A stretch of DNA of 64,000 nucleotides from Chloroflexota bacterium (GTDB lineage: Bacteria; Chloroflexota; Dehalococcoidia; JACQUA01), in the NCBI GenBank assembly GCA_016210565.1, contig JACQUA010000074.1:1-64000 (forward strand). The letters are read 5' to 3'. The position numbers and the translations under genes are program-made. This document shows positions 240-18,954 of this stretch, piece after piece. Below the pieces are notes generated by a model that saw nothing but the letters and a program-made list of their open reading frames with translations, was not told where the DNA came from and did no database searches. Numbering within the stretch: the stretch's first letter is position 1; each line of letters starts with the position of its first letter.

Positions 240-845
240 ATGGGTATTCTTGACAGTCCCCGCAGGCGGCAGGAAAAAGACATCCAGCGCGAGGTCAAAT
301 ACAAGCAGGGCCTCATCCGCGTCAAGGGCTATATCCAGCGCTGCCGGGCCTCCCAGAAGGAGTTCTGGGAGCTTGGCAAGCGGGCGCTAAAGCTGGGGGA
401 CCAGCGCCAGTTCCAGAACATCGCGCGGTCTTATTTGCGGGCCGGGGAGATCGCCTCCCGCTGGGAGCGTTACCTGGTGGCCGCGGAGACCATTGCCATC
501 CAGCGCGGCCAGGTCAAGGCCACCGGCGAGTTCGTCCAGTCCGTCCGGGCGCTTTCTGAGTCCATGATGGCCGGAGCGAAGGCGGAAGACGTGGTCAAGA
601 TGCAGGTCGAGCTGGAGCAGGCCCTGACCCGGGCCCAGACCGTGGACGAGACCCTGGGCGCCGTCATGGACGCCACCGCCGATACGGTGTTCTCCTCGGA
701 GGGCCTGTCCGAGGATAACCTGAAAGAAATCCGGGACGCCATGTCCGCCGAGGCCGCCCATGAGGAATCCGCCGCCGTCCAGGACGACCGCATCGCCGCC
801 GGCATCAAAGCCGTCGAAGAACAGATGCGAAAGGAAATGAAGTGA
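240..845 (+). CDS. ESCRT-III (Snf7)-like helical protein
   Basis: I start this at ATG 240 (AGGAG five bases upstream) because the longer ORF start lies in repeat DNA; the product is about 201 residues, the usual ESCRT-III size. It is almost wholly helical. Residues 1-60 are strongly basic, followed by a long helix region (about 60-130, including RSYLRAGEIASRW and KATGEFVQSVRALSESMM) and an acidic C-terminal part (about 150-185), ending in a short amphipathic basic helix (AVEEQMRKEMK). This basic-core, acidic-tail order and the KATGEF..SV.ALS..M pattern resemble the eukaryotic CHMP1/Vps2/Vps24 group more than bacterial PspA/Vipp1. ESCRT-III proteins polymerise on membranes and are remodelled by Vps4; a Vps4-like MIT-AAA gene lies 3.5 kb downstream. 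The last helix could serve as a MIT-interacting motif, but it does not match the MIM1 consensus exactly. Family assignment is by eye. Confidence 0.7.
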   Translation: MGILDSPRRRQEKDIQREVKYKQGLIRVKGYIQRCRASQKEFWELGKRALKLGDQRQFQNIARSYLRAGEIASRWERYLVAAETIAIQRGQVKATGEFVQSVRALSESMMAGAKAEDVVKMQVELEQALTRAQTVDETLGAVMDATADTVFSSEGLSEDNLKEIRDAMSAEAAHEESAAVQDDRIAAGIKAVEEQMRKEMK

Positions 846-3438: not shown

Positions 3439-3610
3439 ATGGCTGATAACCTTTCTTTCCTTCTGGACAAGAGCGTGGCCCACCTGGACAGGGGCCTGGT
3501 GATGCAGCGGCAGGGAAACCTGCCGGAGGCCAGGTACAACCTGCTGAAGGCCGCGGGGTTTAGTCTCAGAGCGGCGGAACAAGCACCACCGCCCGGGAGA
3601 GAGAATGCCT
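3439..3610 (+). pseudogene. Truncated copy of the MIT-like N-terminus of the Vps4-like ATPase
   Basis: The first 57 or so codons are nearly identical to the start of the AAA gene at 4371 (ADNLSFLLDKSVAHLD.GL.MQRQGNLPEARYNLLKAA), then similarity fades after about base 3610. The open frame runs on to 3750 through unrelated DNA that contains the vapB promoter. There is no AAA domain. This is most simply the duplicated 5' end of the ATPase gene separated from the rest by vapBC. Expression of a free MIT-like domain, which could bind the ESCRT-III-like protein competitively, cannot be excluded. Confidence 0.7.
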
Positions 3611-3638
3611 CTTCCAGTTTGCACCGAGCAAGCTGGCG

Positions 3639-3693
3639 CGATATACCATATGGACGAGCCATCTTTGCAGTATATATCGGCGCGACATATAAT
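3639..3693 (+). promoter_or_regulatory. Promoter and possible operator of vapBC
   Basis: A perfect TATAAT at 3688-3693 lies 18 bases after TTTGCA (3664-3669), 34 bases before the vapB ATG. Two similar elements, GGCGCGATATACCATATGG (3638-3656) and GGCGCGACATATAATGG (3679-3695), flank or overlap the promoter. They are good candidates for VapB autoregulatory sites. Confidence 0.55.
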
Positions 3694-3727
3694 GGTGCTG
3701 TATTCAAGCTAGAAAGGACGGAGCACC

Positions 3728-3931
3728 ATGAAGACTACCGTGGTTATTGACGAAAAGATTCTTGAAGAGGCCATGAAAGCGGCGAACGTGAAAACCAAAC
3801 GCGAGGCTATCGAGGTGGCCCTGCTGGAATTGATAAGGAAGAAGAAGAGGGACGGCCTCATGGAGGCATTGGGGACCTTCAAAGTCGATCTGACCCTCGA
3901 AGAACTGGAGAAGTTGAGAAGTGAACCCTGA
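3728..3931 (+). CDS. vapB: VapB-type antitoxin
   Basis: A 67-residue protein with an N-terminal ribbon-helix-helix-like segment (MKTTVVIDEKILEEAMKAAN) followed by a helix rich in Lys and Glu and the typical toxin-wrapping tail (TFKVDLTLEELEKLRS). It overlaps vapC by 11 bases. VapB antitoxins bind and inhibit the PIN-domain RNase VapC and repress their own promoter; a promoter with repeated sites lies just upstream. GACGGAG-like ribosome-binding site. Confidence 0.85.
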   Translation: MKTTVVIDEKILEEAMKAANVKTKREAIEVALLELIRKKKRDGLMEALGTFKVDLTLEELEKLRSEP

Positions 3932-4364
3932 GCTTGTCCTGGCCGACACCTCCGCCTGGCTAATGGCGCTGGGGCGCTTGGCAGTACCGGGAGTAGTACA
4001 GAGACTGAGAGAGTTGATACGGCAGAACAGACTCGCCACAACTCCGATTGTCAGGTTGGAGTTACTCGCTGGCGCCAGGTCGGAAACGGAATTTCAGCAG
4101 CTCCGGGACCAGCTCGATGGTTTGCACCTGCTGCCTATAAACGAGCCTGAATGGGCCGAAGCCGCCAGGCTTGCCTTCGATCTACGTCGCGCCGGCAAGA
4201 CGGCGCCCCACACCGATGCCCTTATCGCTACCGCAGCAAAGCGGGCCGGCGCCGTGCTGCTGCACGCGGACCATCACTTTGATTACATTGCGGAAATTAC
4301 GGGACTGGCCGTGGAAAGCCTCGTTCCCCTGGTCAAAAAGCTGTCTTCGAATCCGGGATCTTGA
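3921..4364 (+). CDS. vapC: VapC-type PIN-domain ribonuclease toxin
   Basis: Starts at GTG 3921 inside vapB; 147 residues. The PIN acidic residues are all present: Asp in LADTSAW near residue 9, Glu in VRLELLAG near 50, Asp in PHTDALIA near 98, and Asp in HADHHFDYI near 116. Toxins of this family cut tRNA or rRNA and are held inactive by VapB. The gene ends only six bases before the Vps4-like ATPase gene, so the module is embedded in the ESCRT-like locus and could be co-transcribed with it. A decayed copy lies at 3041-3226. Confidence 0.87.
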   Translation: MNPELVLADTSAWLMALGRLAVPGVVQRLRELIRQNRLATTPIVRLELLAGARSETEFQQLRDQLDGLHLLPINEPEWAEAARLAFDLRRAGKTAPHTDALIATAAKRAGAVLLHADHHFDYIAEITGLAVESLVPLVKKLSSNPGS

Positions 4365-4370
4365 GCGCCA

Positions 4371-5507
4371 ATGGCTGACAATCTTTCTTTCCTGCTGGAC
4401 AAGAGCGTGGCCCATCTGGACAAGGGCCTGGAGATGCAGCGGCAGGGGAACCTGCCGGAGGCCAGGTATAACCTGCTGAAGGCCGCCGAGTTCCTTTTCA
4501 AGGCGGCGGAGAAGACGTCGCCGCCTTTGAAGGAAAAGCGGGTCGAGCGGGCGCAGGCGCTGCTGGCCCAGGCCGCAGCTCTGGAAAAGCCGGGCAAGAG
4601 CGCCGCGGCGTCGGGCCCGAAGACCGCGGGAAAAGCCGCGGAGACGGCCACGGCCGACGCCTCCGAATGGCTGGTGCGCGAAAAGCCCGACGTCCGCCTG
4701 GCCGATGTCGCCGGCCTCGGCGAGGCGAAGGAGCAGATCCTGATCAAGATGGTCTATCCCTTCACCCATCCCGAGCTGGCGAAGAAATACGGCATCAAGA
4801 AGGGCGGCGGCCTACTGCTCTACGGCCCGCCCGGCACTGGCAAGACCATGATCGCCAAGGCCGTGGCGGGGGAGATCGACGCCGCGTTCTATACCGTCAA
4901 ACCCAGCGAGGTGATGTCCAAGTGGGTGGGCGAAGCCGAGCAGAACGTCGCCCGTCTGTTCGATAGCGCCCGCAAGCAGCCCCGGGCGGTCATCTTTCTG
5001 GACGAGGTCGAGGCCCTGGCCCCGCGCCGTAGCCAGAACATCTCCACCGTCATGGCCCGCCTGGTACCCCAGATTCTATCGGAGTTGGAAGGTTTTGATT
5101 CCAAAGCGGATAAGCCCAACACCCTGCTGTTCATTGGCGCCACCAACGAGCCGTGGTCGCTGGACGAGGCCATTCTGCGTCCGGGCCGGCTGGACGAGAA
5201 GCTCTACATACCGCTGCCCGATGAGAAGGCCAGGAAGCAGATCCTGCAATCCAACCTGAAGGGGAAGCCGCTGTCGCCGGAGCTGAACCTGGACGAGGTG
5301 GCCCGGATGACCGAGGGCTACAGCGGCGCCGATTTGCGCCGTCTCTGCGAGAAGGCCAGCGACGCCCCCTTCCTGGAGTCCATCCAGACCGGCCAGGAGC
5401 GTCCCATCGAGATGCGGGACATCCTGACCGTTCTGCATGCGTTAAAACCATCGGTGTCGCAGAAAAACCTGGCGCGATTTGAGCGCTTTGCCGCGCAAGG
5501 AGGGTAG
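4371..5507 (+). CDS. Vps4-like AAA ATPase with N-terminal MIT-like domain
   Basis: 378 residues. Residues 1-75 form a three-helix MIT-like domain: a GNLPEARYNLLKAAEFL helix hairpin, then a VERAQALLAQAAALE helix. A linker leads to one AAA module with Walker A GPPGTGKT (152-159), aromatic pore loop SKWVGEAEQNV (Trp185), Walker B IFLDEVEAL (Asp211, Glu212), sensor GATNEPW and arginine fingers RPGR (Arg270, Arg273). Pore loop, ATNEPWSLDEAI and EKLYIPLPDEKAR track the eukaryotic/archaeal Vps4 (meiotic-clade) pattern more closely than FtsH, proteasomal or Cdc48 ATPases. Vps4 hexamers pull ESCRT-III subunits through the pore; the ESCRT-III-like protein at 240 is the obvious substrate. Family placement is by eye and needs a tree. 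Confidence 0.8.
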   Translation: MADNLSFLLDKSVAHLDKGLEMQRQGNLPEARYNLLKAAEFLFKAAEKTSPPLKEKRVERAQALLAQAAALEKPGKSAAASGPKTAGKAAETATADASEWLVREKPDVRLADVAGLGEAKEQILIKMVYPFTHPELAKKYGIKKGGGLLLYGPPGTGKTMIAKAVAGEIDAAFYTVKPSEVMSKWVGEAEQNVARLFDSARKQPRAVIFLDEVEALAPRRSQNISTVMARLVPQILSELEGFDSKADKPNTLLFIGATNEPWSLDEAILRPGRLDEKLYIPLPDEKARKQILQSNLKGKPLSPELNLDEVARMTEGYSGADLRRLCEKASDAPFLESIQTGQERPIEMRDILTVLHALKPSVSQKNLARFERFAAQGG

Positions 5508-7681: not shown

Positions 7682-8455
7682 ATGTTCAGGTATTCGATAG
7701 TCTTTGAAGCGCCTTCGGGGCCGGTTACCTTTCCGGTCGAAGGCAGAATGGAAATCGGCCGGCAGGATGACGGGCGGGAAATAATGGTCCGGTGCGGCAC
7801 CGTCATGCAGGGGACCGGTGAGTTCGACCAGAGCGTTTCCCGGTTTTCCCGCGGCTACCTGCTCCTGTACCTCGAAGCCGGGCGGCTGATGGTCCAGGAC
7901 TGCGGCACCCTCGGCGGGACGTGCATGGACGGCAGACTGCTTCCAGGTCTCGTCCCCAGGTCGAAAACACGGCGCCAGAGCCAGACCGTGCCCGTGGAGT
8001 GGAACTGCTGCCTGACCATCGGCGCCACGACCTTCCGGGTACTGACCAGGGAGATACTCATGGCCCCGCCGCAGTGGATCGACCGGCTGGGACCGGAGCA
8101 CATCAGGGAGCTGGAGAACCTTTCCGCCCAGGCCCTGGTGCTCCTGGCCGGAACGCCGGAACAGGCAAGGTGCCTCACCGAGATAGCGAAGACAAAACTC
8201 ATCTGCGAGGCTAACCTGTCGGTAGACCGAATCCTGGCGTTGCAGCTTTCCGACAGGCCCGAGCTGGCGGAGACGGTGAAAGAGGTTCTTACGGCCGTCT
8301 TGAACACCGGCAAACGCGAAGACTACGAGAGGCTCATCAAAGAGATCAAAGAGAACGCCGGCGCCCGCAATGAGATTTACGAAAAGAACATTCGGGACCT
8401 GACGGCCCTGTTCGCCCAGGCCATGGAGACCATGAAGATCGTTGGCAGCCGGTAG
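7682..8455 (+). CDS. FHA-domain protein with C-terminal helical module
   Basis: 257 residues. The N-terminal 115 residues have the beta-rich FHA pattern: strand FRYSIVFEAP, IGRQ at about 25-28, a SRFSRGYLLL strand and GTLGGTCMDG. FHA domains bind phosphothreonine. The usual Arg of the GR motif and the Ser are kept, but the His of SxxH is replaced by Ser and the NGT Asn by Gly, so binding may be altered. The C-terminal 120 residues (LAGTPEQARCLTEIAK, then RPELAETVKEVL, then ALFAQAMETM) are helical. By eye they share a module with the zinc-ribbon protein at 10690 and the SPFH protein at 17152. The two kinases nearby are the natural source of phosphorylated partners. Confidence 0.75.
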   Translation: MFRYSIVFEAPSGPVTFPVEGRMEIGRQDDGREIMVRCGTVMQGTGEFDQSVSRFSRGYLLLYLEAGRLMVQDCGTLGGTCMDGRLLPGLVPRSKTRRQSQTVPVEWNCCLTIGATTFRVLTREILMAPPQWIDRLGPEHIRELENLSAQALVLLAGTPEQARCLTEIAKTKLICEANLSVDRILALQLSDRPELAETVKEVLTAVLNTGKREDYERLIKEIKENAGARNEIYEKNIRDLTALFAQAMETMKIVGSR

Positions 8456-8515
8456 CGGCACGCTGCGCGTGCCCTCAACTCAACAACCCAATAACTCAAT
8501 AACTCGAAGAACTCC

Positions 8516-10195
8516 ATGAACTCCGGTACATTCGGTCTCGAAAAGAAATTCGAGCTGCAGGATCTCTTGGGCAGCGGCGGCTTCGCCGAGGTCTATAAGG
8601 CCGTCCGCAAAGAGGACAACCTCACCGTGGCCCTGAAGCTGCCGCGCATTTCGGGTTTCCAGACCACTTCTGCCAACTTCGTCAAGGAGGTGGCCAACTG
8701 GAAGAACCTGAAACACCCGGGCATCGTCCCGCTCCTGGAGTTCGGCCAAACGCCGGTGCCGTATATCGCCATGGAGTTCATGCCCGGCGGCTCGCTCAGG
8801 TCCAGGATTGGGTCGCTTACCATACCCCAGGCCCTGACCATTGCCGCGCAGTTAGCCGATGCCCTGTTCTATGCCCACCGCCACGGCCTGGTGCACCTCG
8901 ACGTCAAGCCGGAGAACATCCTGTTCGACGCGGAAGGCAACGCCAGGCTGAGCGACTGGGGCCTGAGCCGGGTGATGCTGGCCTCATCGGCCGGGTCGGT
9001 GGTCAGCCTCAGCACCGCCTTCTATGCCGCGCCGGAACAGTTCGTTCCGGGGAAGCAGTACGGCGGGCGCGACTGGCAGACCGACATCTGGCAGTTTGGC
9101 GCGACGCTCTACGAGATGGTCACCGGCAGGCTGCCCTTCCCCGCCCAGGACATGATGGAGCTGATGCACAAGATACTGGAAGAAGAACCGGTGGCTATTG
9201 GCCAGGCCAGTCCGGATCTCGACGTTCGGGCGGAACTGGACCGCCTGATTGCCCGGTGCCTCAAGAAGGACAAGAAGGAAAGGTTCGACGACTTCCACCC
9301 CATCAGGAACGAGCTGCAGTCGCTGCTGACCGCGCCGAAGCCGAAGGCGAGCTATGAAGCATCTCCGTTGTCCGGCTACGCGCCGTTGAAGGTCGGCTTT
9401 CGGGACACGTCCACCGGCCCGGTCTCCTCCTGGCGCTGGGATTTCGGGGATGGGGTCACCAGCACGGAGCAACACCCCGCCCACGTCTTCACGAATGCAG
9501 GTAGTTTCAAGACAAGTCTTACCGTCAGGGGCGCCGGCGGCTCCGATGGTTGCTTGATGTCCAACAAAGTGGTTGTGAGCCCGGTAGCCTCCGAAATCAC
9601 CCCGGCGGCCGTTGCCCCTCCGGCCACGGAACCGCCACTTTCAACGGCGAGCTTGGGCCGGCCGTCCACCGCGAAGCCGGCGGCCGCTTTGGAAACGGAT
9701 GAAGTCCGTCCCCCAAAAGCGTCGCCGGATCGGACAAGGAAGAAGGTGACTGTGGCGCTGGTATCATCCGCGGCTGTTGTCCTGATACTCGTCATAGGGG
9801 TCGCTGTTGGCCCCAAGCTTCTGCAGGGAGAGCTTTCCCGCCAATCAACGGTGACGACCCCCACACCTTCACCCACTCCCAAACCTCCCATTTCCAAAGA
9901 AGCAGCGCTAACGGTGTCGCCAGGCAAGAGCGGTGCGTACTTTGTTTCGGTAGATTCGGGTGATAGGCTGACGGGCACTTTTACCATCAGCGGCGGAAGC
10001 GGCAACGATATTAGCTTCTTGATAAAGGACCCCACGGGGAACACAGTCCTTACTGTCGGTCGCGTCTCGACGAACTGGCAGTTTGATTTCGTCTGCCTAT
10101 TTACTGGCTCGTATCAGCTCGTATTTGATAACTCGTTTTCAAGTGTTAGCAACAAAGCCGTCAACCTCAACCTGAAGGTCTATCCAAAGAATTGA
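8516..10195 (+). CDS. Transmembrane Ser/Thr kinase with PKD and GOLD domains
   Basis: 559 residues. The kinase domain (about 12-270) has the Gly-rich loop LGSGGFAEVY, Lys41 in VALK, catalytic loop HLDVKPEN (Asp129; HLD replaces HRD) and DWG in place of DFG, and an APE-like AAPEQ. A PKD domain follows (about 277-350; WDFGDGVTSTEQHPAHVF). After a linker comes one transmembrane helix (about 411-433), then a P/T linker and a C-terminal GOLD domain (about 465-559) ending GSYQLVFDNSFSSVSNKAVNLNLKV, very like the GOLD domain of Sec14-like proteins. The topology puts the kinase and, oddly, the PKD domain inside and GOLD outside. The GOLD part is nearly duplicated in the next gene. A paralogous kinase is at 15221. 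Confidence 0.85.
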   Translation: MNSGTFGLEKKFELQDLLGSGGFAEVYKAVRKEDNLTVALKLPRISGFQTTSANFVKEVANWKNLKHPGIVPLLEFGQTPVPYIAMEFMPGGSLRSRIGSLTIPQALTIAAQLADALFYAHRHGLVHLDVKPENILFDAEGNARLSDWGLSRVMLASSAGSVVSLSTAFYAAPEQFVPGKQYGGRDWQTDIWQFGATLYEMVTGRLPFPAQDMMELMHKILEEEPVAIGQASPDLDVRAELDRLIARCLKKDKKERFDDFHPIRNELQSLLTAPKPKASYEASPLSGYAPLKVGFRDTSTGPVSSWRWDFGDGVTSTEQHPAHVFTNAGSFKTSLTVRGAGGSDGCLMSNKVVVSPVASEITPAAVAPPATEPPLSTASLGRPSTAKPAAALETDEVRPPKASPDRTRKKVTVALVSSAAVVLILVIGVAVGPKLLQGELSRQSTVTTPTPSPTPKPPISKEAALTVSPGKSGAYFVSVDSGDRLTGTFTISGGSGNDISFLIKDPTGNTVLTVGRVSTNWQFDFVCLFTGSYQLVFDNSFSSVSNKAVNLNLKVYPKN

Positions 10196-10231
10196 AACGC
10201 GGTGATCCAAATATTAGCGAGGAGGAATACC

Positions 10232-10669
10232 TTGAAGTCAACATTTGGTCATGGACAGCCTGCCGGTCGCGTAATGCTTCTGCTGGTATTGGTAATGCTT
10301 GTAGGCTGCGGGTATGGCGTCGCGGTGAGGACCCCCACACCTCCTCCCACACCCAAGCCTCCGATCTCCAAACAAGCTGCGTTAACAGTGTCACCTAGCA
10401 ATAACAGCACCTACTCTGTTGCGGTAAATTCGGGTGATCGGCTGACGGGCACTTTTACCATCAGCGGCGGAAGTGGCAACGATATTAACTTCCTGGTCAA
10501 GGATCCCACGGGGAACACGGTGCTCTCAGGTGGTCGTGTCTCCAAGAACTGGCAGTTTGATTTTGTCTGCCTATCTACCGGCTCGTATCAACTCGTATTT
10601 GATAACTCGTTTTCAAATGTTAGCAATAAAGCCATCAATTTGAACCTGAAGGTATATCCGAAGGACTGA
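10232..10669 (+). CDS. GOLD-domain lipoprotein
   Basis: I choose TTG 10232 because GAGGAGG lies six bases upstream; this gives 145 residues with a short signal peptide (LLLVLVMLVGC) and lipobox Cys near residue 28. A PTPPPTPKP linker leads into a GOLD domain of about 95 residues that is some 80-90 percent identical by eye to the C-terminus of the upstream kinase (GDRLTGTFTISGGSGNDI, WQFDFVCL.TGSYQLVFDNSFS). It is probably a duplicated, secreted form of the kinase sensor domain, lipid-anchored outside the membrane, and may bind the same ligand or pair with the kinase. Confidence 0.8.
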   Translation: MKSTFGHGQPAGRVMLLLVLVMLVGCGYGVAVRTPTPPPTPKPPISKQAALTVSPSNNSTYSVAVNSGDRLTGTFTISGGSGNDINFLVKDPTGNTVLSGGRVSKNWQFDFVCLSTGSYQLVFDNSFSNVSNKAINLNLKVYPKD

Positions 10670-10689
10670 CAGATTGAGAGGGGATCTCC

Positions 10690-11307
10690 GTGGACAGAAT
10701 AATTGATCCGGGCGACATGGCGGATATCGATGACGCCATACAAATCTGGAAGAAATGGAAGTTCGGGAAGCAGGATGTGTCGAAACGGGAGCAGGAGATC
10801 AAGCAGGACATCGATAGGCGTTGGGCGCTGATCGAGCAGGAGCTGGAGAAGAGCAAGCTGGAATACCTCCAGGGGAAGTCGATCGAGACCCTCATGGCCA
10901 TCGCCAGAGACCCGGCCAACCTGCAAACGCTCTACAAGACTGCCAGGCTGAGGACTCTTGAAAGTCTGCCACGGAACAAGGCGGCGCTGCTCATGCTCGA
11001 AGACCAGGCCATCACCGCCGACATCGCCAAAGAGATCATTCTGGCTGTCCAACAATCAGGGCAAATGGAGAAGTATATCGCCGAGTTGAAAGAGATGCGG
11101 CACGCTGGCCAGGCGTCTGACAGGGAGCATTTGCAGGCGTTGCTCCAAACCGTAAATTCCGCTCTCGCCGGAATGTCCGCGGCCGCCGGGCCCGCTGTCT
11201 GGTCGCCTCCCGGGCCGCCCCGTCCTCCGGTCCGTTTCTGTGTCCAGTGTGGGACCGAGGTCCCATCGGGTTCGCGGTTTTGCGGGCACTGTGGCAGCCA
11301 GTTGTAG
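10690..11307 (+). CDS. Helical protein with C-terminal zinc ribbon
   Basis: Starts at GTG 10690 with a GAGGGG site; 205 residues. Residues 20-155 are helical (KREQEIKQDIDRRWALIEQELEKSK coiled-coil-like segment). Residues 70-155 (IETLMAIARDPANLQTL, ITADIAKEIILAVQQSGQMEKY, HLQALLQTVNSALAGM) look homologous to the C-terminal modules of the FHA protein at 7682 and the SPFH protein at 17152. A Pro-rich hinge precedes a zinc ribbon with CVQCG and CGHCG pairs. The gene lies 20 bases after the GOLD lipoprotein and is likely in the same transcript. Function is not recognised; it looks like an adaptor. Confidence 0.7.
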   Translation: MDRIIDPGDMADIDDAIQIWKKWKFGKQDVSKREQEIKQDIDRRWALIEQELEKSKLEYLQGKSIETLMAIARDPANLQTLYKTARLRTLESLPRNKAALLMLEDQAITADIAKEIILAVQQSGQMEKYIAELKEMRHAGQASDREHLQALLQTVNSALAGMSAAAGPAVWSPPGPPRPPVRFCVQCGTEVPSGSRFCGHCGSQL

Positions 11308-11366
11308 GTTCGTAAGGCTCATATGGTTCATAAGGTTTGAACGGAACAGGTTGGAAGGTCCGGAGC

Positions 11367-12833
11367 ATGGACGGATTTGAACAGAAGCTAAAGCAAATAA
11401 CGGAGAAGCTGGATGCGGCTGCGGAGAGGCCGCGGGCGAAGACCGGGGATGAGTTACAAGGTTTGAAGGTAAGGGGGGAGATTCCAAGATTGGAAGATTC
11501 GAAGATTCCAAGATTCCCCACCACCACGCCGGATCTGCGCGTTCCGCCCCGACGCGGCCCGGTGAATTTGACCAGCGAGCTGGGGTTCCTGGATGACCTG
11601 GCAGAGGAGTGCTTTGATTTCGGGCGCACGCTGGGCAGGACGATGCGGACCTACCCGGTCTATTTGTGCCAGTCGCTGGATGACTTTTTCGGGCTGACCG
11701 TGAAGGATGTGGGGATGCCGGAAGGGGTGCGGGCGCAGGTCGTGCAGGCGAAGAAACGGGAGGCGGCGCAGCAGGCGGAGGAGACCGGAGGGGGAATCCT
11801 GGGGGTGCATTTTCCGGGGCCGGGGTGCTATTTGAACGGGTGGTTGATGGAGAGGAGAGAACGAGAAAGAGATGGAGATAGAGACGGGCACGGAGGACCG
11901 CAGGCAGGGACGCCTGCGGCACCCGCCGGGGACAGGCACGGTGGCCTGTCCTACTGGCCGGAGATTGTCGGCACGGTCATTCACGAGAAGTTCGGGCATG
12001 GCTTCATCAGCGAAATGAGCGCCTGGGGCAGGGAGCGCAGACGGCTGAATCTCGACCGGTATGACATCGCCCGGCGCTTTAACCTGAAGGCCACCGATAG
12101 CCCGGCCGAGGTCGCCATGGGCGAGAAGTACAACCTGGTATACCGCGCCTGCCGCATCTGTGAGGAGGGGTATGCGGAATGGATAGAGAACTACCTTTGG
12201 CAGAAGTGGCACCAAGGTTTCGACATCCGCCATGGATGTCGCTACGGGCTCGACGGCCTGCTTTCGGTCCTGGGCGGCTGGAAAACCGAGCCGGCCCAGG
12301 AAAAGGAGTTCGCCGACGCCCTGGCCGGGGTGTGCGCTCTGCTGCTCGGGGATGTGGAGATGAATTCGGAGGAATCACCCGCGCCTGGCAGTTCACGCAC
12401 AATCAAGGATGATAATAATGGCCCACACAGGCGGGGACGCGCTGTGCCACCCGTATTTCCTGCGCAACTGATGGAAGGCATGGGCGTGCTGGGCACCGCG
12501 GATGACCTGCTGGGCCCGGCCCTGATGTCCGCCCTGGGAAAACCCCTGCACTACGTGGCGGGCTACCTGCTGGTGGAAAAGCTGGCGCGGAACCTGGGGG
12601 CGGATTTCGTCCCCTATGCTGTGCTCATCGCCAACAACGTGACCTTCGACCTGGAGAGGACATCGATTTCCGACCTGGGCCACTTGCTGCAGCACACTCC
12701 GGAGCTGAACATCAACGCCCGGCTGTTCATGCTGGCCGAACTGAAATCGGACAGGGAAATGAACTTGCGACAAAAATGCGGCTTGATAAAAGACAATCTC
12801 GGCTTCGCCATTCCGCGATTCTTCGGTTCGTAA
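11367..12833 (+). CDS. Unrecognised protein with HExxxH motif and repeat-derived insertions
   Basis: I use ATG 11367 rather than TTG 11337; about 488 residues. No family is recognised. A conserved-looking segment GTVIHEKFGHGFISEM has HExxxH at residue 206, the spacing known from TldD-type metalloproteases rather than HExxH gluzincins; EEGYAEW some 60 residues later could give a further ligand. Three stretches are encoded by DNA of the intergenic repeat families: RLEDSKIPRFP near residue 40, PQAGTPAAPAGDRHGG near 180, and GPHRRGRAVPP near 355. These look like in-frame repeat insertions. The C-terminal 130 residues are helical and hydrophobic but without clear membrane spans. Position argues for a role in the ESCRT-like locus. 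Confidence 0.5.
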   Translation: MDGFEQKLKQITEKLDAAAERPRAKTGDELQGLKVRGEIPRLEDSKIPRFPTTTPDLRVPPRRGPVNLTSELGFLDDLAEECFDFGRTLGRTMRTYPVYLCQSLDDFFGLTVKDVGMPEGVRAQVVQAKKREAAQQAEETGGGILGVHFPGPGCYLNGWLMERRERERDGDRDGHGGPQAGTPAAPAGDRHGGLSYWPEIVGTVIHEKFGHGFISEMSAWGRERRRLNLDRYDIARRFNLKATDSPAEVAMGEKYNLVYRACRICEEGYAEWIENYLWQKWHQGFDIRHGCRYGLDGLLSVLGGWKTEPAQEKEFADALAGVCALLLGDVEMNSEESPAPGSSRTIKDDNNGPHRRGRAVPPVFPAQLMEGMGVLGTADDLLGPALMSALGKPLHYVAGYLLVEKLARNLGADFVPYAVLIANNVTFDLERTSISDLGHLLQHTPELNINARLFMLAELKSDREMNLRQKCGLIKDNLGFAIPRFFGS

Positions 12834-13041
12834 GGTTTGTAAAGTTTATAAGGTTCATAAGGTTTGTAAGGTTAGAAAGTTGGAAGGTTGCAAGGTTGGA
12901 AGGTTGGAACCACGAATGAACACGAATGAACACGAATCGAAGGATTGAGGATTGCAGATTCCGGATTGGAGATTGGAGTTGGCTATTAGCTGAAGGCTGT
13001 TAGCTGATAGCTGATAGCTGTTAGTTCGCCCGAGGTGCGCC
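12834..13041. repeat. Intergenic repeat block
   Basis: Short direct repeats of AAGGTTTGTAAGGTT, GTTGGAAGGTTG, CACGAATGAACACGAATG, GATTGCAGATTCCGGATTGGAG and TAGCTGATAGCTG follow one another. No gene is seen. The last GAGGTG before ATG 13042 is the ribosome-binding site of the next gene. Confidence 0.7.
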
Positions 13042-14940
13042 ATGAGCAATACGGTTTCAGATTCAGGCAAGAACCGGGGGACCGCTCCCGGCGACATCAT
13101 CCTGGCCGAGCAGTTCAATATGCCGGAACTGCCGGCGGGCGGCCTTTTCTGGCTGTTCAAGGCTCTGCACGTCTACCCGGGCCACCAGGGACTGGTCACC
13201 AAAGACGGCCATATCATCAGGCCCCCGGTAACGGGGCCGGACAAAGGCATCCGCAAGGTACTGGTCGCCTGGCGGTTTCTCCGCCAGGGCCGCGGCGCCG
13301 TGCGCGTCTTCACCAACCCGGTGAACGCCGAAGTGGAGTTGCCTTCGCTGAACACCGGGGACTGGAAAGCCGTGGCGGTCAAGCTACCCCTGAAGCTGCA
13401 AGTCGCCGACCCGGTGCTGTTCTACAACAACCTGCTGCGGGGGCGCCCCGGGGAGTATACGCTGTCCGCGTTCGAGGCCGACATAGCGCCGGCGGCGGGC
13501 AAACCGGTGCAGAGGTGGGTAAACGGGTACGCGGCGCAATCTCTGCTTGAAGACGACGGTAACATCGGCCAGGGACTCGCGGACGGGCTAAAACTCGATC
13601 CGGCGGGCGAAATGAAGAACATCCTGGCCGCCCGCGGCCTGGCGCTCGTTGAATGCTCTTCCCTGGCCTTCGCTCTCCCGGAAGAGCCGGGAGAACCGCC
13701 GCCGTCGCCTGAGGAACTGGCAGAAAAGGCGCGGACACAGAGCCTGGAGGAGCTTCTGAGGCCGTGGGAAAAAGCGGCCACGGCCGGCGATATCAAAGAG
13801 GTAAAGGCCGCCTTCGCCAGGTCGTCCGAAGAGGGACAGAAGGCCTGGGGGGCGCTGGTGGACCGGCTGGAGCAACAGAGGGAGAGGGCGCTGGAAAAGC
13901 GGGCGCGGCAGCTTGAACGGGTGGAGGGGGTGGCGGCGGCGGCGAAGCCGTCGCCTGCCTTCCCCGTCAGGCAGCTCAGCAAGCTCGGCATCTATCTGGC
14001 CATCGTGCTCATCCTCGGCGCCGCCTCGGCCTGGCTCACCATCTTCAAGTCCACCCACTACCAGACCCCGGCGGGGGCGGGGGCTGCCCTGGTCATGGTC
14101 TTTGGATTCATGCTCCTGATCCAGGCCGTAGTCGATCACGCCATGGCCCGGGCCCTGCCCCAGGTTGTCGAGCCGATGTCGAAATTCATGCGGAGCCTCA
14201 TGCCGTGGCGGGCAGGCAGTCGAACAGTCGAGCAGTCGAGCAGTCAAGCAGTCAAGCAGTCAAGTGGCCAAGCAGGCGAACAGCCAGCAGTTGGCAGCCG
14301 GCAGCCGGTAGTGGGGAGTGGAGAGTCGGCAGTCGGGGGGCAGGGGTCAGCAGTCAGCGGACTGCAGCCAGCCCCCACCCCAGCGCCTGAGGCTGTCCCC
14401 ATCCCACCCGCACCCCTCGCGGCCGCACCGCGGTCGCAATTCCTTGCCGACTGGCTGAAGAATGACGCTATGAAGGCCGACAAGAAGGTCCGCGGCCAGG
14501 TCTCCCGGGAGCTGACCCGGGCAGTCAGCAGCATCAACGACGCCCGGCTGAGCAAACCGTGGTCGCAGGACAGAGAAGGGGCGGTGGCCCTGAAGAAGAT
14601 CGCCGACGATGCCAACACCTTCCGGACCAGCATCGAAATAGCCCCCGCCCACGACTACACGGCCGTCAAGGAATGGAAAGGCCACGAACGGGAGCTGGCC
14701 GCCCGTCTGATAGCCTTCCTGGAGGAACTGCTCCGGCAGGGGGAGGCATTCGCCAGCGCCAGCGCCCGGCTGCAGCCGGGCGCTGACGATGCCGGCCCCC
14801 CCGGCCACCCCGGCGCCGATGGCCCCCAGCCGCGGCCACCAGCCACCGCTCCGACGCCGGAAACCCTCGCCGCCATGCTCCGCCGCATGGAAAAACACTG
14901 GGAGAAGCGCGAAGCGATTTTCAATGGAATCCTCCGATAG
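13042..14940 (+). CDS. SPFH/band-7-like membrane protein with two transmembrane helices
   Basis: 632 residues. The first 200 (LHVYPGHQGLVTKDG..., then AVRVFTNPVNAEVEL, then LPLKLQVADPVLFYNNLL) have the beta-strand order of SPFH/band-7 domains, though divergent. A charged helical region follows (230-300), then two transmembrane helices (about 312-336 and 345-370). A low-complexity insert (SSSQAVKQSSGQAGEQ...) is encoded by GTCGAGCAGTC-type intergenic repeat DNA. The C-terminal half is helical with a Pro-rich stretch. SPFH proteins form membrane rings or scaffolds; a second SPFH-like protein follows at 17152. The SPFH call is tentative. Confidence 0.5.
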   Translation: MSNTVSDSGKNRGTAPGDIILAEQFNMPELPAGGLFWLFKALHVYPGHQGLVTKDGHIIRPPVTGPDKGIRKVLVAWRFLRQGRGAVRVFTNPVNAEVELPSLNTGDWKAVAVKLPLKLQVADPVLFYNNLLRGRPGEYTLSAFEADIAPAAGKPVQRWVNGYAAQSLLEDDGNIGQGLADGLKLDPAGEMKNILAARGLALVECSSLAFALPEEPGEPPPSPEELAEKARTQSLEELLRPWEKAATAGDIKEVKAAFARSSEEGQKAWGALVDRLEQQRERALEKRARQLERVEGVAAAAKPSPAFPVRQLSKLGIYLAIVLILGAASAWLTIFKSTHYQTPAGAGAALVMVFGFMLLIQAVVDHAMARALPQVVEPMSKFMRSLMPWRAGSRTVEQSSSQAVKQSSGQAGEQPAVGSRQPVVGSGESAVGGQGSAVSGLQPAPTPAPEAVPIPPAPLAAAPRSQFLADWLKNDAMKADKKVRGQVSRELTRAVSSINDARLSKPWSQDREGAVALKKIADDANTFRTSIEIAPAHDYTAVKEWKGHERELAARLIAFLEELLRQGEAFASASARLQPGADDAGPPGHPGADGPQPRPPATAPTPETLAAMLRRMEKHWEKREAIFNGILR

Positions 14941-15220
14941 ATGACAGATTGCAGATTCTCCCCCGGTACCCCGGGCGTCCCGCCCGGGGAGATCGAACAT
15001 GCAGCTTCAAGATTGAAGTTCCACGGGCGAGGAGCCGCAACCACGAAAGACACGAAAAACACGAAACAAAGGATTGAAGATTCAAAGATTCCCCCGGCAG
15101 AGGATTCAAGATTACAGATTGCAAGATTGAAGATCGCCTGCGGGCTGATAGCTGATAGCTGACAGCCGATAGCCGATAGCCGATGGCGCGTTTCGCAACC
15201 CAACGAACTCAAGGACCTCA
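14941..15220. repeat. Intergenic repeat block
   Basis: Contains CCCGGTACCCCGGGCGTCCCGCCCGGGGA palindrome, ACCACGAAAGACACGAAAAACACG, GATTGAAGATTCAAAGATTCC and TAGCTGATAGCTGACAGCCGATAG arrays. No gene is seen in these 280 bases. Confidence 0.7.
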
Positions 15221-16978
15221 ATGAACTCTATGAACTCCTTTGGTCTCGAATCCCGGTTCCAGGTACTCGAACTCCTGGGCGGCGGCGGCTTTGCCGATGT
15301 TTACAAAGCCGTCCGGAAGTCGGACAGGCTCACCGTGGCCCTGAAGCTGCCCCGGCTGGCCGGGTTCCAGACGGCCCAGCACGACCTCTTTCTCAAAGAA
15401 GCCGAGAAGTGGAAGAACCTCCGCCATGCCCACATCGTCCCGCTGATCGAGTTCGGTCGGACGCCGGTACCTTACATCGCCATGGAGTACATGTCCGCCG
15501 GCTCTTTGCGGGGAAGGATTGGCAAGCTGGCCATCCCGGAAGCCCTGGCCGTCGCCGCCCAGGTGGCGGAAGGCCTCTTCTATGCGCACCGCTGCGGCCT
15601 GGTGCACCTGGACATCAAGCCGGAGAATATCCTCTTCGATGCGGAAGGCAAAGCCAGGCTGAGCGACTGGGGCCTGAGCAGAGTCATGCTGGCCAGCTCG
15701 GCGGGCAGCACGGCCAGCGCCGGGACGCTGGCCTACTCCGCGCCGGAGCAGGTGTTCCCCCCCAGGTTCGGCGAGCGGGACTGGCAGACCGACGTGTGGC
15801 AGTTCGGCGCCACCCTTTACGAAATGGTCACCGGCCGGTTGCCGTTCCAGGCGGACAACATCCTGGAGCTGGGCCAGAAAATCTGCACTGAAGAACCACT
15901 GCCCCCGCGGCAGTTCCGGCCCCACCTGGACATACCCGGCGAATTGAACGACCTGATCATGCGCTGCCTCCGCAAGGACAAGAAAGAGAGGTTCCGCGAC
16001 TTCTATCCCATCCAGGGCGCCATCGAGACCCTCCTCCGACCGCCCGCCAAGGTCGAGACTTTCTCCACACCCACAACCCAACGTCGTTCCCGCGAAGGCG
16101 GGAATCCAGTGGTCCCGCAAAAGCGCCAGCCTTCCCCCGTGCCGGCAACATCCAAAACCCGTACGGGCACGTTGCACGTGCCCCCCCAGCAAGAGGGCGA
16201 GCCTTCCCCCATACCCGCAGCCGTACCCGGCCCGGAGCCCCAGCGGAAGCGCCGGCCAGTCCTTGCCATCGTCCTGCCCTTGCTGTTTGTCGTGCTGCTT
16301 GGAGCGGGTGGATTAACATACTGGGCGGCTGCCAACAAGAAGCCTCCACCCATGATCCCGCCCACCGCCACGCCAGCCGCCGCCGGCGTTGCGCAGCGGG
16401 CTACCCCCCCAGCCCCGGCACCTACGAGCACCCCTGCACCAAAGCCGGCGACGGCCGCGCCAACGCCTCTGCCCGGCACCGAACCCAGGAAACCGGCCGC
16501 GGTGAACGAACCTCCGGTTCCGCGCCTTCCGGACGCGGTCACCACGAGACCCAGCTTCTTCAAGGGTGGCGAATTGGCGGGTGGCCATTCTGACTCTATC
16601 CCAGTTCAACTGAAGGTAGGAGAAATGCTCCAAGGGGAAATTATTGCGGTCCGCAATCAGAGTTTGAGCTGGGATATCGCTGACTTTAGCGGCCGCGTCG
16701 TTCAGTCCTTTGGGACAACGGATACCAGAGCGGGTTTCTACTACGCGCCGGAGGTTGACGGACAGCATTACATAGTGATCACCAATCCCAGGGACTGGGA
16801 GATCGGTACGCATGGTTACCAGGTGACCTATTCCACAACAGGTTCTACCGTGCCTCCCGGAGCGGGGTCAGGTCAAGGCTCCGGAGCACCGGTGATTAAG
16901 TGGGTGCTCATCATCGCGTCGGCTGGGGTTGTCTTCTTCATAATCCGACGGCTCTCTTGGGGAGCCAAACGTGGCTGA
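15221..16978 (+). CDS. Transmembrane Ser/Thr kinase with GOLD-like sensor
   Basis: 585 residues, a paralogue of the kinase at 8516. The kinase domain (about 13-270) keeps LGGGGFADVY, Lys42 in VALK, HLDIKPEN with Asp131, DWG and SAPEQ. A linker (275-345) includes RRSREGGNP and TGTLHVP, encoded by two dispersed repeats (TTCCCGCGAAGGCGGGAATCC and GGGCACGTTGCACGTGCCC). A transmembrane helix at about 346-370 is followed by a P/T/A-rich stalk. A beta-rich domain (about 455-540; IPVQLKVGEMLQGEI, RAGFYYAPEVDGQHYIVI) resembles a diverged GOLD or bacterial pre-peptidase-like fold. A second hydrophobic helix (555-578) may bring the C-terminus back inside. No PKD domain, unlike the paralogue. Confidence 0.83.
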   Translation: MNSMNSFGLESRFQVLELLGGGGFADVYKAVRKSDRLTVALKLPRLAGFQTAQHDLFLKEAEKWKNLRHAHIVPLIEFGRTPVPYIAMEYMSAGSLRGRIGKLAIPEALAVAAQVAEGLFYAHRCGLVHLDIKPENILFDAEGKARLSDWGLSRVMLASSAGSTASAGTLAYSAPEQVFPPRFGERDWQTDVWQFGATLYEMVTGRLPFQADNILELGQKICTEEPLPPRQFRPHLDIPGELNDLIMRCLRKDKKERFRDFYPIQGAIETLLRPPAKVETFSTPTTQRRSREGGNPVVPQKRQPSPVPATSKTRTGTLHVPPQQEGEPSPIPAAVPGPEPQRKRRPVLAIVLPLLFVVLLGAGGLTYWAAANKKPPPMIPPTATPAAAGVAQRATPPAPAPTSTPAPKPATAAPTPLPGTEPRKPAAVNEPPVPRLPDAVTTRPSFFKGGELAGGHSDSIPVQLKVGEMLQGEIIAVRNQSLSWDIADFSGRVVQSFGTTDTRAGFYYAPEVDGQHYIVITNPRDWEIGTHGYQVTYSTTGSTVPPGAGSGQGSGAPVIKWVLIIASAGVVFFIIRRLSWGAKRG

Positions 16979-17151
16979 CAACCTTGTTCGGGCAGTAGTG
17001 AGTAGCACGGTAGCAAGTAGCGAGTAGTGAGTAGTCAGTAGTCAGCGGACGGCGGACGGCAGGCAGCAGCCGACATCTGACAGCCGATAGCCGGAGTCTG
17101 GTAGCTGATAGCTGAAAGCTGTTAGCTGGCAGCCATTCACAGGAGGACAAC
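16979..17151. repeat. Intergenic repeat block with strong RBS
   Basis: AGTAGTGAGTAGC and TAGCTGATAGCTGAAAGCTGTTAGC arrays with no gene. CACAGGAGGACAAC just before 17152 is the ribosome-binding site of the next gene. Confidence 0.7.
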
Positions 17152-18954
17152 ATGCTTACGTTGAATGAAACGGAATTTGCCCGCCGGTTCTACGCGCGGG
17201 AGCTGCGGGGATGGGTGACCAAGGACTTCGCCGTGCCCCAGGGGATGAACGCCATGCTCCTCAGGGATGAAGAACTGCAGCACGTGGCGGGGCCGGGGGC
17301 GGTCACCGTGGCTTCGGGGGTGAAACAGCTCATCGCGGAGTGGTTCGACTGGGGCCGCGACAAGGACTGCCTGGTCCTGGTCAGGGCCAGCGATTTCGAG
17401 CTGCCCTATTCCCTGAGCAGGCTGCTCACCGGCGACCCGATATTCCTGGACCTGGCTTTCAGACTGGTCGCCCGCCTCAAACCCGGCAGCGGGGCCAACT
17501 TCCTGCACAACCTGATGCAGGACAGGATGAGCCTCACCTTCGAAGAATTGAAGTCCAGCCTCCAGCCGGAGATCAAGGATGCCGCCCAGTCCCATCTCCG
17601 CAAGAAGCGCCTCCAGGAGCTGGCGGATACCTTTCCCGATTCCCTCAAGGACCTGGAGACCGACCTGGAGCTCCGTCTGAACCAGACCCTGGCGAGTTCC
17701 GGGCTGGCCTTTGTCCAGTTGAAGGGCCTCGACTTTTACTGCCAGGCCTGGGACGAACGCACCATCGCCCTGGCCGACGCCTTCGCCAAGGTGACCAGGA
17801 AGAAGGTCGATCTGGACACGCGGAAACAGCTTTTCGAGCTGATCAGCCAGGAAGAGCTCCAGGCCATCGCCGAGGAAACGAAGAAGGCCGAGCACTACAA
17901 GCTCAGGACCCAATTGTGGGAGAGGATGCGCCGGGCCGCCCAGACGGACAAGATGAATGAACTACTTGCCAGCCATGACTTCGAGAAATTCCTTGATGGG
18001 ATTGACCGGGATAAATTGCTGATGCACGCGGAACGCGAAGAGATCAAGAGAAACCTGTCGGACAAGCTGGAGGACCGGGACCGGGCGAGGGCGCATTTGA
18101 TCCGCATCACGCAACTGAAGAACGACTACGAATACCGCCAGCAGGACATGTCCCTGCGCCAGCGTTTGACCGCGGAGCAGCAATCGGCGGAGGCCGAGAT
18201 CGAGAAGGGCCGTCTGAGGGTGGAACTGGAGCGCGTGGACATCGAAATCCAGATACGGCGCAAGCAGGAGGAAGCGGAGCTGGAGGGGGCGAAGCTCCGC
18301 GCCGGCATCGACGACATCGGGCTGGGCCAGGAGGGGAAAAGAAAGGCCCAGCAGAGGCTCGACCAGGCGGAGACAGACCGGCAGCGCCTCGAGACCAAGA
18401 GGGAGGAGATGAAGCAGGAAATAGACTACTACAAGTCGCTGGGTTGCATGCCCCCGGAGGCGCTGGTCATGGCCGCGCCTACGCCGGAGAAGGCCAAGCT
18501 CCTGGCGGACCTGGCCAAGCTAAAGAGCCAGGCGGGAATGACGGTGGAGCAGATACTGGCCTCGGCGGTAGCCGCGGGATCTTCCACGCAGTCCGCCGAC
18601 ATTCTGAGGGACATGGCCGCCAGGGCGAACACTATCAGCCAGCAAGACATGGGCGAAAGGCGTGTGGAAGAGCAGGTAAAGTTCCGCGCGGAGCTACAGA
18701 AGTCCAATGATGTCTTCTTCCAGGGCTACAAGGAGATGTTTGAAAAGGCCATGAAGACCATTGCCGATATCGCCCAGTCGAAGGGCCAGGCGTCGCCGGG
18801 CTATTATGCGCCTTTCCCGGGTTATCCGCCGTATTCGACTCCGTGGCCCGCGCCCCCGCCGCCCAATCCTGGCCCGCAGTGCCCGCGCTGCCGCCAGTCC
18901 CTTCCCCCCACCGGCAACTTCTGCCCCTACTGCGGGGAGAAACGGACCCCGTAG
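17152..18954 (+). CDS. SPFH-like protein with long coiled coil and C-terminal zinc ribbon
   Basis: 600 residues. The N-terminal 200 (KDFAVPQGMNAMLLRDEELQ..., ASDFELPYSLSRLLTGDPIFLDLAFRLVARL, then LNQTLASSGLAFVQL) fit an SPFH domain of the kind in bacterial virion-core-like (YdjI) proteins. Residues 270-430 are a highly charged coiled coil. Residues 435-560 (APTPEKAKLLADLAKLK, SADILRDMAARA, YKEMFEKAMKTIADIA) resemble the C-terminal module of the FHA protein at 7682. After a PPYSTPWPAPPPP hinge the protein ends in a zinc ribbon (CPRCRQ...CPYCGE). No transmembrane helix. Likely a membrane-associated scaffold and the last gene of the ESCRT-like locus. Confidence 0.7.
   Translation: MLTLNETEFARRFYARELRGWVTKDFAVPQGMNAMLLRDEELQHVAGPGAVTVASGVKQLIAEWFDWGRDKDCLVLVRASDFELPYSLSRLLTGDPIFLDLAFRLVARLKPGSGANFLHNLMQDRMSLTFEELKSSLQPEIKDAAQSHLRKKRLQELADTFPDSLKDLETDLELRLNQTLASSGLAFVQLKGLDFYCQAWDERTIALADAFAKVTRKKVDLDTRKQLFELISQEELQAIAEETKKAEHYKLRTQLWERMRRAAQTDKMNELLASHDFEKFLDGIDRDKLLMHAEREEIKRNLSDKLEDRDRARAHLIRITQLKNDYEYRQQDMSLRQRLTAEQQSAEAEIEKGRLRVELERVDIEIQIRRKQEEAELEGAKLRAGIDDIGLGQEGKRKAQQRLDQAETDRQRLETKREEMKQEIDYYKSLGCMPPEALVMAAPTPEKAKLLADLAKLKSQAGMTVEQILASAVAAGSSTQSADILRDMAARANTISQQDMGERRVEEQVKFRAELQKSNDVFFQGYKEMFEKAMKTIADIAQSKGQASPGYYAPFPGYPPYSTPWPAPPPPNPGPQCPRCRQSLPPTGNFCPYCGEKRTP

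Follow-up and report, generated by a model that had tools for sequence, protein, structure and literature searches.

Systems that combine ESCRT-III with Vps4 were confined to archaea and eukaryotes in a 2024 survey (Makarova et al. 2024, PMC10936438). The archaeal ESCRT loci described there contain SPFH-coiled coil-zinc ribbon, FHA, Ser/Thr kinase (STK) and GOLD proteins, and the survey also cites an SPFH 24-mer with a coiled-coil lid. For the C-terminus of the archaeal FHA proteins only a limited similarity to CdvA was reported (PMC10936438). Transfers of Vps4-like genes to bacteria have been described, with displacement of snf7 (PMC11237479), and in Bacillus subtilis the recruitment of PspA to the membrane depends on YdjI, an SPFH protein encoded by pspA-ydjGHI (PMC8581546). 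We found no report of the Chloroflexota cluster described below in the literature that was searched, with subscription papers and preprints outside the search.

Here we analysed a gene cluster in a stretch of 64,000 nucleotides (the window) of contig JACQUA010000074.1, from the assembly of a Chloroflexota bacterium. RNase Y on this contig is 74% identical to that of a genome of the same family, which identifies the contig as bacterial and rules out misbinning. The cluster includes the following genes:

240..845, + strand: ESCRT-III-like helical protein; its 82% paralog on contig C259 of the same genome has Snf7 as top Pfam match (E 0.0087)
4371..5507, + strand: Vps4/CdvC-like single-AAA ATPase (NCBIfam CdvC 1.5e-67, residues 21-373; Pfam Vps4_C 1.1e-6, above cutoff)
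7682..8455, + strand: FHA-type protein of 257 aa with the C-terminal module, 51% identical to an FHA protein on C259
8516..10195, + strand: Ser/Thr kinase with PKD and GOLD-like domains (Pfam Pkinase 2e-46, PKD_4 8e-14, EMP24/GOLD 1e-10)
10202..10669, + strand: GOLD-like lipoprotein (Pfam EMP24 6e-12)
10690..11307, + strand: zinc-ribbon protein of 205 aa, with a short coil, the module, a Pro-rich linker and a zinc ribbon (Pfam Zn_Ribbon_1 3e-8, residues 183-205)
11337..12833, + strand: putative zinc metallopeptidase of 498 aa, with HEKFGHGF and a downstream conserved EEG..WIE; has an Anaerolineaceae homolog
13042..14940, + strand: second SPFH-type protein, 632 aa, with transmembrane segments by sequence (four-homolog profile E 4.5e-22)
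15221..16978, + strand: Ser/Thr kinase, membrane-anchored by sequence (Pfam Pkinase 3e-46)
17152..18954, + strand: SPFH protein of 600 aa, with an SPFH domain, a long coiled coil, the module, a Pro-rich linker and a zinc ribbon (stomatin matches, Chloroflexota homologs)

Among the closest parallels are the archaeal Meth_adaptin and Halo_FHA ESCRT loci, where STK, GOLD, zinc-ribbon and SPFH-coiled coil-zinc ribbon proteins occur as they do in the window, together with Vps4 and ESCRT-III, for which the window has a Vps4-like and an ESCRT-III-like gene (PMC10936438). In archaeal ESCRT loci the FHA protein also has an extra C-terminal domain, a likeness to the window FHA protein that is drawn by description (PMC10936438). 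Whereas the archaeal loci spread such genes over different clades, the window combines them on a bacterial contig. The SPFH protein of the window also recalls YdjI, a soluble protein whose gene adjoins one of the ESCRT-III superfamily (in the window, an ESCRT-III-like gene) and genes for membrane partners (PMC8581546), and like YdjI with its band-7 domain and C-terminal zinc ribbon (PMC11237479) it combines an SPFH domain with such a ribbon; the two are likened here by description. In the window protein, unlike YdjI, the SPFH domain is separated from the ribbon by a long coiled coil followed by the module. Its cluster differs from pspA-ydjGHI in the partner gene, which encodes another SPFH protein, one that has transmembrane segments, and in the presence of a Vps4-like ATPase, an FHA protein and kinases.

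The helical module and its carriers

An initial annotation of the window had claimed, from an alignment by eye, that one helical module recurs in its FHA, zinc-ribbon and SPFH proteins. The claim is confirmed: every peptide quoted for it is present, and in order, within three + strand open reading frames (7682-8455, 10690-11307 and 17152-18954), and the homology is colinear. The module measures about 115-135 residues and begins slightly before the peptides quoted:

8087..8452, + strand: copy 1, C-terminus of the FHA protein (E 1e-18, and hhalign E 6e-14 against SPFH tails)
10807..11190, + strand: copy 2, zinc-ribbon protein (z 8-9; E 1.3e-5 to 1.1e-7 with profiles of the nearest relatives, weak with an SPFH-only profile)
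18382..18789, + strand: copy 3, C-terminal segment of the SPFH protein

Conservation is highest in the core '(M/C)(S/T)xxQIL', after which come a YER(L)-like helix and then a long last helix; no Pfam or NCBIfam model covers the module. Two of the three carriers are certain, and the zinc-ribbon protein is probably the third, as judged from the sequence comparisons below.

The homology between the FHA and SPFH copies is secure. Their Smith-Waterman score of 98 compares with a mean of 30 for shuffled sequences (z 12.4), and none of 2000 shuffles reached it. In searches of their own genome, the SPFH protein as query returned the FHA C-terminus (E 2.8e-4), and the FHA query returned the tail of the SPFH protein (E 1.8e-4). 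When SPFH tails of other Chloroflexota were built into a profile, with the window protein left out, this matched the FHA protein with an E of 1.7e-18 in a search of 715 ORFs of the window. The profile-profile comparison that the initial annotation had named as a check was also significant for this pair, the full SPFH-tail profile aligning to the FHA protein in hhalign with E 6e-14 and a probability of 98%. The FHA tail has its nearest relative in the tail of the 'a' SPFH protein of G024, a groundwater Chloroflexi MAG with two SPFH paralogs (39% identity, E 7.3e-18, z 33).

The FHA domain that precedes this copy (7682-8090) is degenerate and was not matched by Pfam FHA. The paralog on C259, which has no module, does match Pfam FHA (7.5e-10), and its identity to the window protein places the latter in the family by sequence. 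The window domain does not hold the complete residue set of a phosphothreonine site (GR, SRxH, NGT): GR and SR are retained, the conserved His and the Asn of NGT are replaced, both of which the C259 paralog keeps, and there is a 3-residue insertion. With these canonical residues lost the reading of phosphopeptides is doubtful, and the FHA protein may instead serve as a structural adaptor.

For the zinc-ribbon protein the evidence is less strong, though still good. It gave shuffle z scores of 8.1 against the FHA protein and 9.0 against the G024 'a' SPFH protein, which was also its best match among 275 background proteins. Since that G024 protein stops at the module, the ribbon, which it lacks, does not account for this match. 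Compared directly with the window SPFH protein it was not significant (z 1.4), nor was it with SPFH-only profiles (E 2.5-3.5). In hhalign it reached probabilities of 0.9-5% against SPFH and 12% against FHA alone. Two profiles of its nearest relatives, built from the FHA copy with near SPFH tails, did match the zinc-ribbon protein in a set of 2546 ORFs, with E values of 1.3e-5 and 1.1e-7 and the next unrelated ORF at 0.0034 and 0.014. The alignment is colinear and spans the whole module, and the succession of coil, module, Pro-rich linker and ribbon is that of the C-terminal half of the SPFH protein, so that the zinc-ribbon protein resembles the C-terminal part of an SPFH protein without its head. 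Its segment also showed a weak similarity to GatB/YqeY (E 0.0014, below cutoff), which was absent for the SPFH tail and the FHA protein.

When the entire genome of the window was searched with a profile, these three copies were returned, all in one cluster, and no further carrier. In 399 other genomes of the phylum the same search gave one convincing match, on an SPFH protein of G382. Weaker matches at L064-L069 were not relatives where inspected, L066 being a solute-binding protein and L068 a TPR protein. AlphaFold2, run on the FHA copy and seven SPFH tails with the zinc-ribbon copy omitted, predicted helices only (14-19, 24-41, 46-53, 58-72 and 77-121) at low confidence (pLDDT 66.8, pTM 0.32). 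Foldseek returned nothing at E<=0.001 with this model, as its low confidence would lead one to expect.

SPFH relatives and the source of the module

The family profile of the 600-aa protein matched several stomatin chains in the PDB (E 0.004 to 0.03). By sequence it can be placed in the SPFH/Band 7 superfamily, as a distant member since Pfam Band_7 does not match it. Homologs were located in G024, SAR202, two Anaerolineae and G581; no SPFH relative was found in plasmid records. The module directly follows the coiled coil in all seven of the Chloroflexota SPFH proteins examined, and a zinc ribbon terminates every homolog except the G024 'a' protein (G24a). Because the module ends the coiled coil in all seven, it is the SPFH protein's own C-terminal segment. 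On an FHA protein or a standalone zinc-ribbon protein it has so far been seen only in the window genome. The three proteins are thus not the equal carriers that had been assumed: the relatives place the module in SPFH, and its presence on the FHA and zinc-ribbon proteins is secondary.

The second, 632-aa SPFH-type protein was recognised with a profile of four SPFH-TM homologs that lie beside module SPFH genes. The G024 homolog was in turn matched by an SPFH profile at 8e-17. In G024, SAR202 and both Anaerolineae the homologs of this protein are encoded directly 5' of the module SPFH gene.

We lean towards the explanation that the module is an SPFH assembly segment which was transplanted onto two adaptors, and that these join an SPFH-scaffolded ESCRT-like membrane complex. 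It is possible, if somewhat doubtful, that the zinc-ribbon protein is instead a truncated SPFH paralog that retained coil, module and ribbon, leaving the FHA protein as the sole true graft, in which case the sharing would partly reflect duplication and not adaptor design. The colinear layout of coil, module, Pro-rich linker and ribbon would fit such an origin, as would the long branch (3.2) of the zinc-ribbon copy in our tree. That same tree groups the zinc-ribbon copy with the FHA copy (95/97), both nearest to G24a, which speaks against truncation, although the long branch makes the position uncertain; the frame is also open and undisrupted and the ribbon is intact. This explanation overlaps with that of transplantation, and the likelihoods that we attach to the different explanations are not meant to sum to one.

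We consider it unlikely that the homologous module is a generic element for oligomerisation or stability, through which its carriers self-associate with no common partner. The all-helical prediction with a long helix at its end, in the low-confidence model, would be consistent with such an element, and so would the oligomerisation of SPFH proteins and the existence of the C259 FHA protein altogether without it; however, a generic element would not be expected to have every copy in the genome within one cluster. Coincidence is highly improbable: helical segments rich in Ala, Leu and Glu can score through composition, but shuffles, reversed sequences and background proteins all fall short of the FHA scores and together with the profiles (E 1e-18 to 1e-14) rule it out for the FHA and SPFH proteins, so that chance could account solely for the zinc-ribbon copy, with its E of only 2.5 against an SPFH-only profile.

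ESCRT-like genes and their neighbourhood

By its sequence, the ATPase at 4371 is a Vps4-type enzyme with a single AAA module and Vps4_C (29 bits, cutoff 21.3). Like the eukaryotic and archaeal Vps4/CdvC proteins it has the single AAA module, the Vps4_C helix and a CdvC match over nearly its full length. Unlike them it has an N-terminus that resembles MIT by eye and is not recognised by Pfam MIT, and its score lies under the NCBIfam CdvC equivalog cutoff. A fragment at 3439-3750, beside a PIN-domain gene, is nearly identical to the N-terminus of this protein and represents a partial duplication.

The protein at 240 is a likely ESCRT-III. AlphaFold2 modelled it as a hairpin of long helices (pLDDT 81), from an alignment that included rows from the L075 and L095 loci with which the protein has no detectable pairwise similarity. 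Foldseek listed CHMP and CdvB for this model among other coiled coils, none of them significant, and VIA-align listed VIPP1 with F-BAR and efflux-adaptor hairpins scoring equally, and thus did not discriminate. A sequence search of the PDB with the ESCRT-III-like proteins found no ESCRT-III. An ESCRT-like match in G054 proved to be RNase III.

The ESCRT-III-like and Vps4/CdvC-like genes occur twice in this genome, in the window and on C259. On the latter (G000:C259, L059) the ESCRT-III-like gene is followed directly by Vps4, then by NTase, FHA and kinase genes. In the window the two are separated by an NTase-HEPN pair and a PIN-domain gene (996-1920, 3921-4364), which look like insertions given that the genes adjoin on C259. 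Further along the cluster, the lipoprotein at 10202 is nearly a duplicate of the GOLD-like region with which the kinase at 8516 ends. The protein at 11337 matches no Pfam family and is probably a zinc metallopeptidase, judged by a motif pattern (HEKFGHGF / EEG..WIE) that its homolog in the Anaerolineaceae cluster shares.

That Anaerolineaceae cluster (L075, 1348-14995) has a gene order much like that of the window: ESCRT-III-like, Vps4-like, PQQ-ZnR, peptidase, SPFH-TM, SPFH-module-ZnR, vWA-ZnR and kinases. In G581 (L095, 5756-13297) the genes encode ESCRT-III-like, Vps4-like, transglutaminase-CDC48_N, SPFH-module-ZnR and IG-like zinc-ribbon proteins. The G581 locus resembles the archaeal adaptin-type ESCRT loci, and its contig could be an archaeal contaminant or misbinned. 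In G024, where SPFH proteins are present, we saw no full-length Vps4 match, and the module is therefore not strictly tied to ESCRT. The initial proposal that the three carriers belong to a single system gains support from the colinear homology, from the lack of any further carrier in the genome and from the clustering of SPFH and partner genes in other Chloroflexota.

A proposed role for the module

The homology is an observation, and from it we infer docking: a common docking surface, as the initial annotation had suggested, is plausible. If the module is indeed a transplanted SPFH assembly segment, the architecture of SPFH proteins would indicate where it acts. Membrane SPFH proteins would form ring- or dome-shaped oligomers with their coiled coils meeting at the top, and as the coiled coils converge there the module may sit at the crown of the dome. 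Its graft onto the FHA and zinc-ribbon proteins could then recruit both adaptors to the crown, either through homotypic pairing or through binding of a common partner. Through adaptors at this position, kinase signalling would reach a complex on the SPFH scaffold that is ESCRT-III/Vps4-like and remodels membranes. The module copies of the two adaptors are closer to the ribbon-less 'a' protein of G024 than to the SPFH protein of their own cluster, and the FHA and zinc-ribbon proteins may therefore stand in for 'a' within an a/b hetero-assembly.

Put together, we tentatively propose a bacterial ESCRT-III/Vps4 system in Chloroflexota that is built on a two-component SPFH scaffold. Its FHA and zinc-ribbon adaptors, which are linked to kinases, would join the complex by means of a module that was copied from SPFH. 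If this is true, ESCRT-III and Vps4 systems would not be confined to archaea and eukaryotes. The module, at about 115 residues, can be deleted or swapped and so offers a concrete and testable link between signalling-type adaptors and a membrane scaffold. Should the cluster be a true ESCRT system, it would represent a bacterial counterpart of the archaeal ESCRT loci and would bear on the origin of the partnership between SPFH proteins and ESCRT-III.
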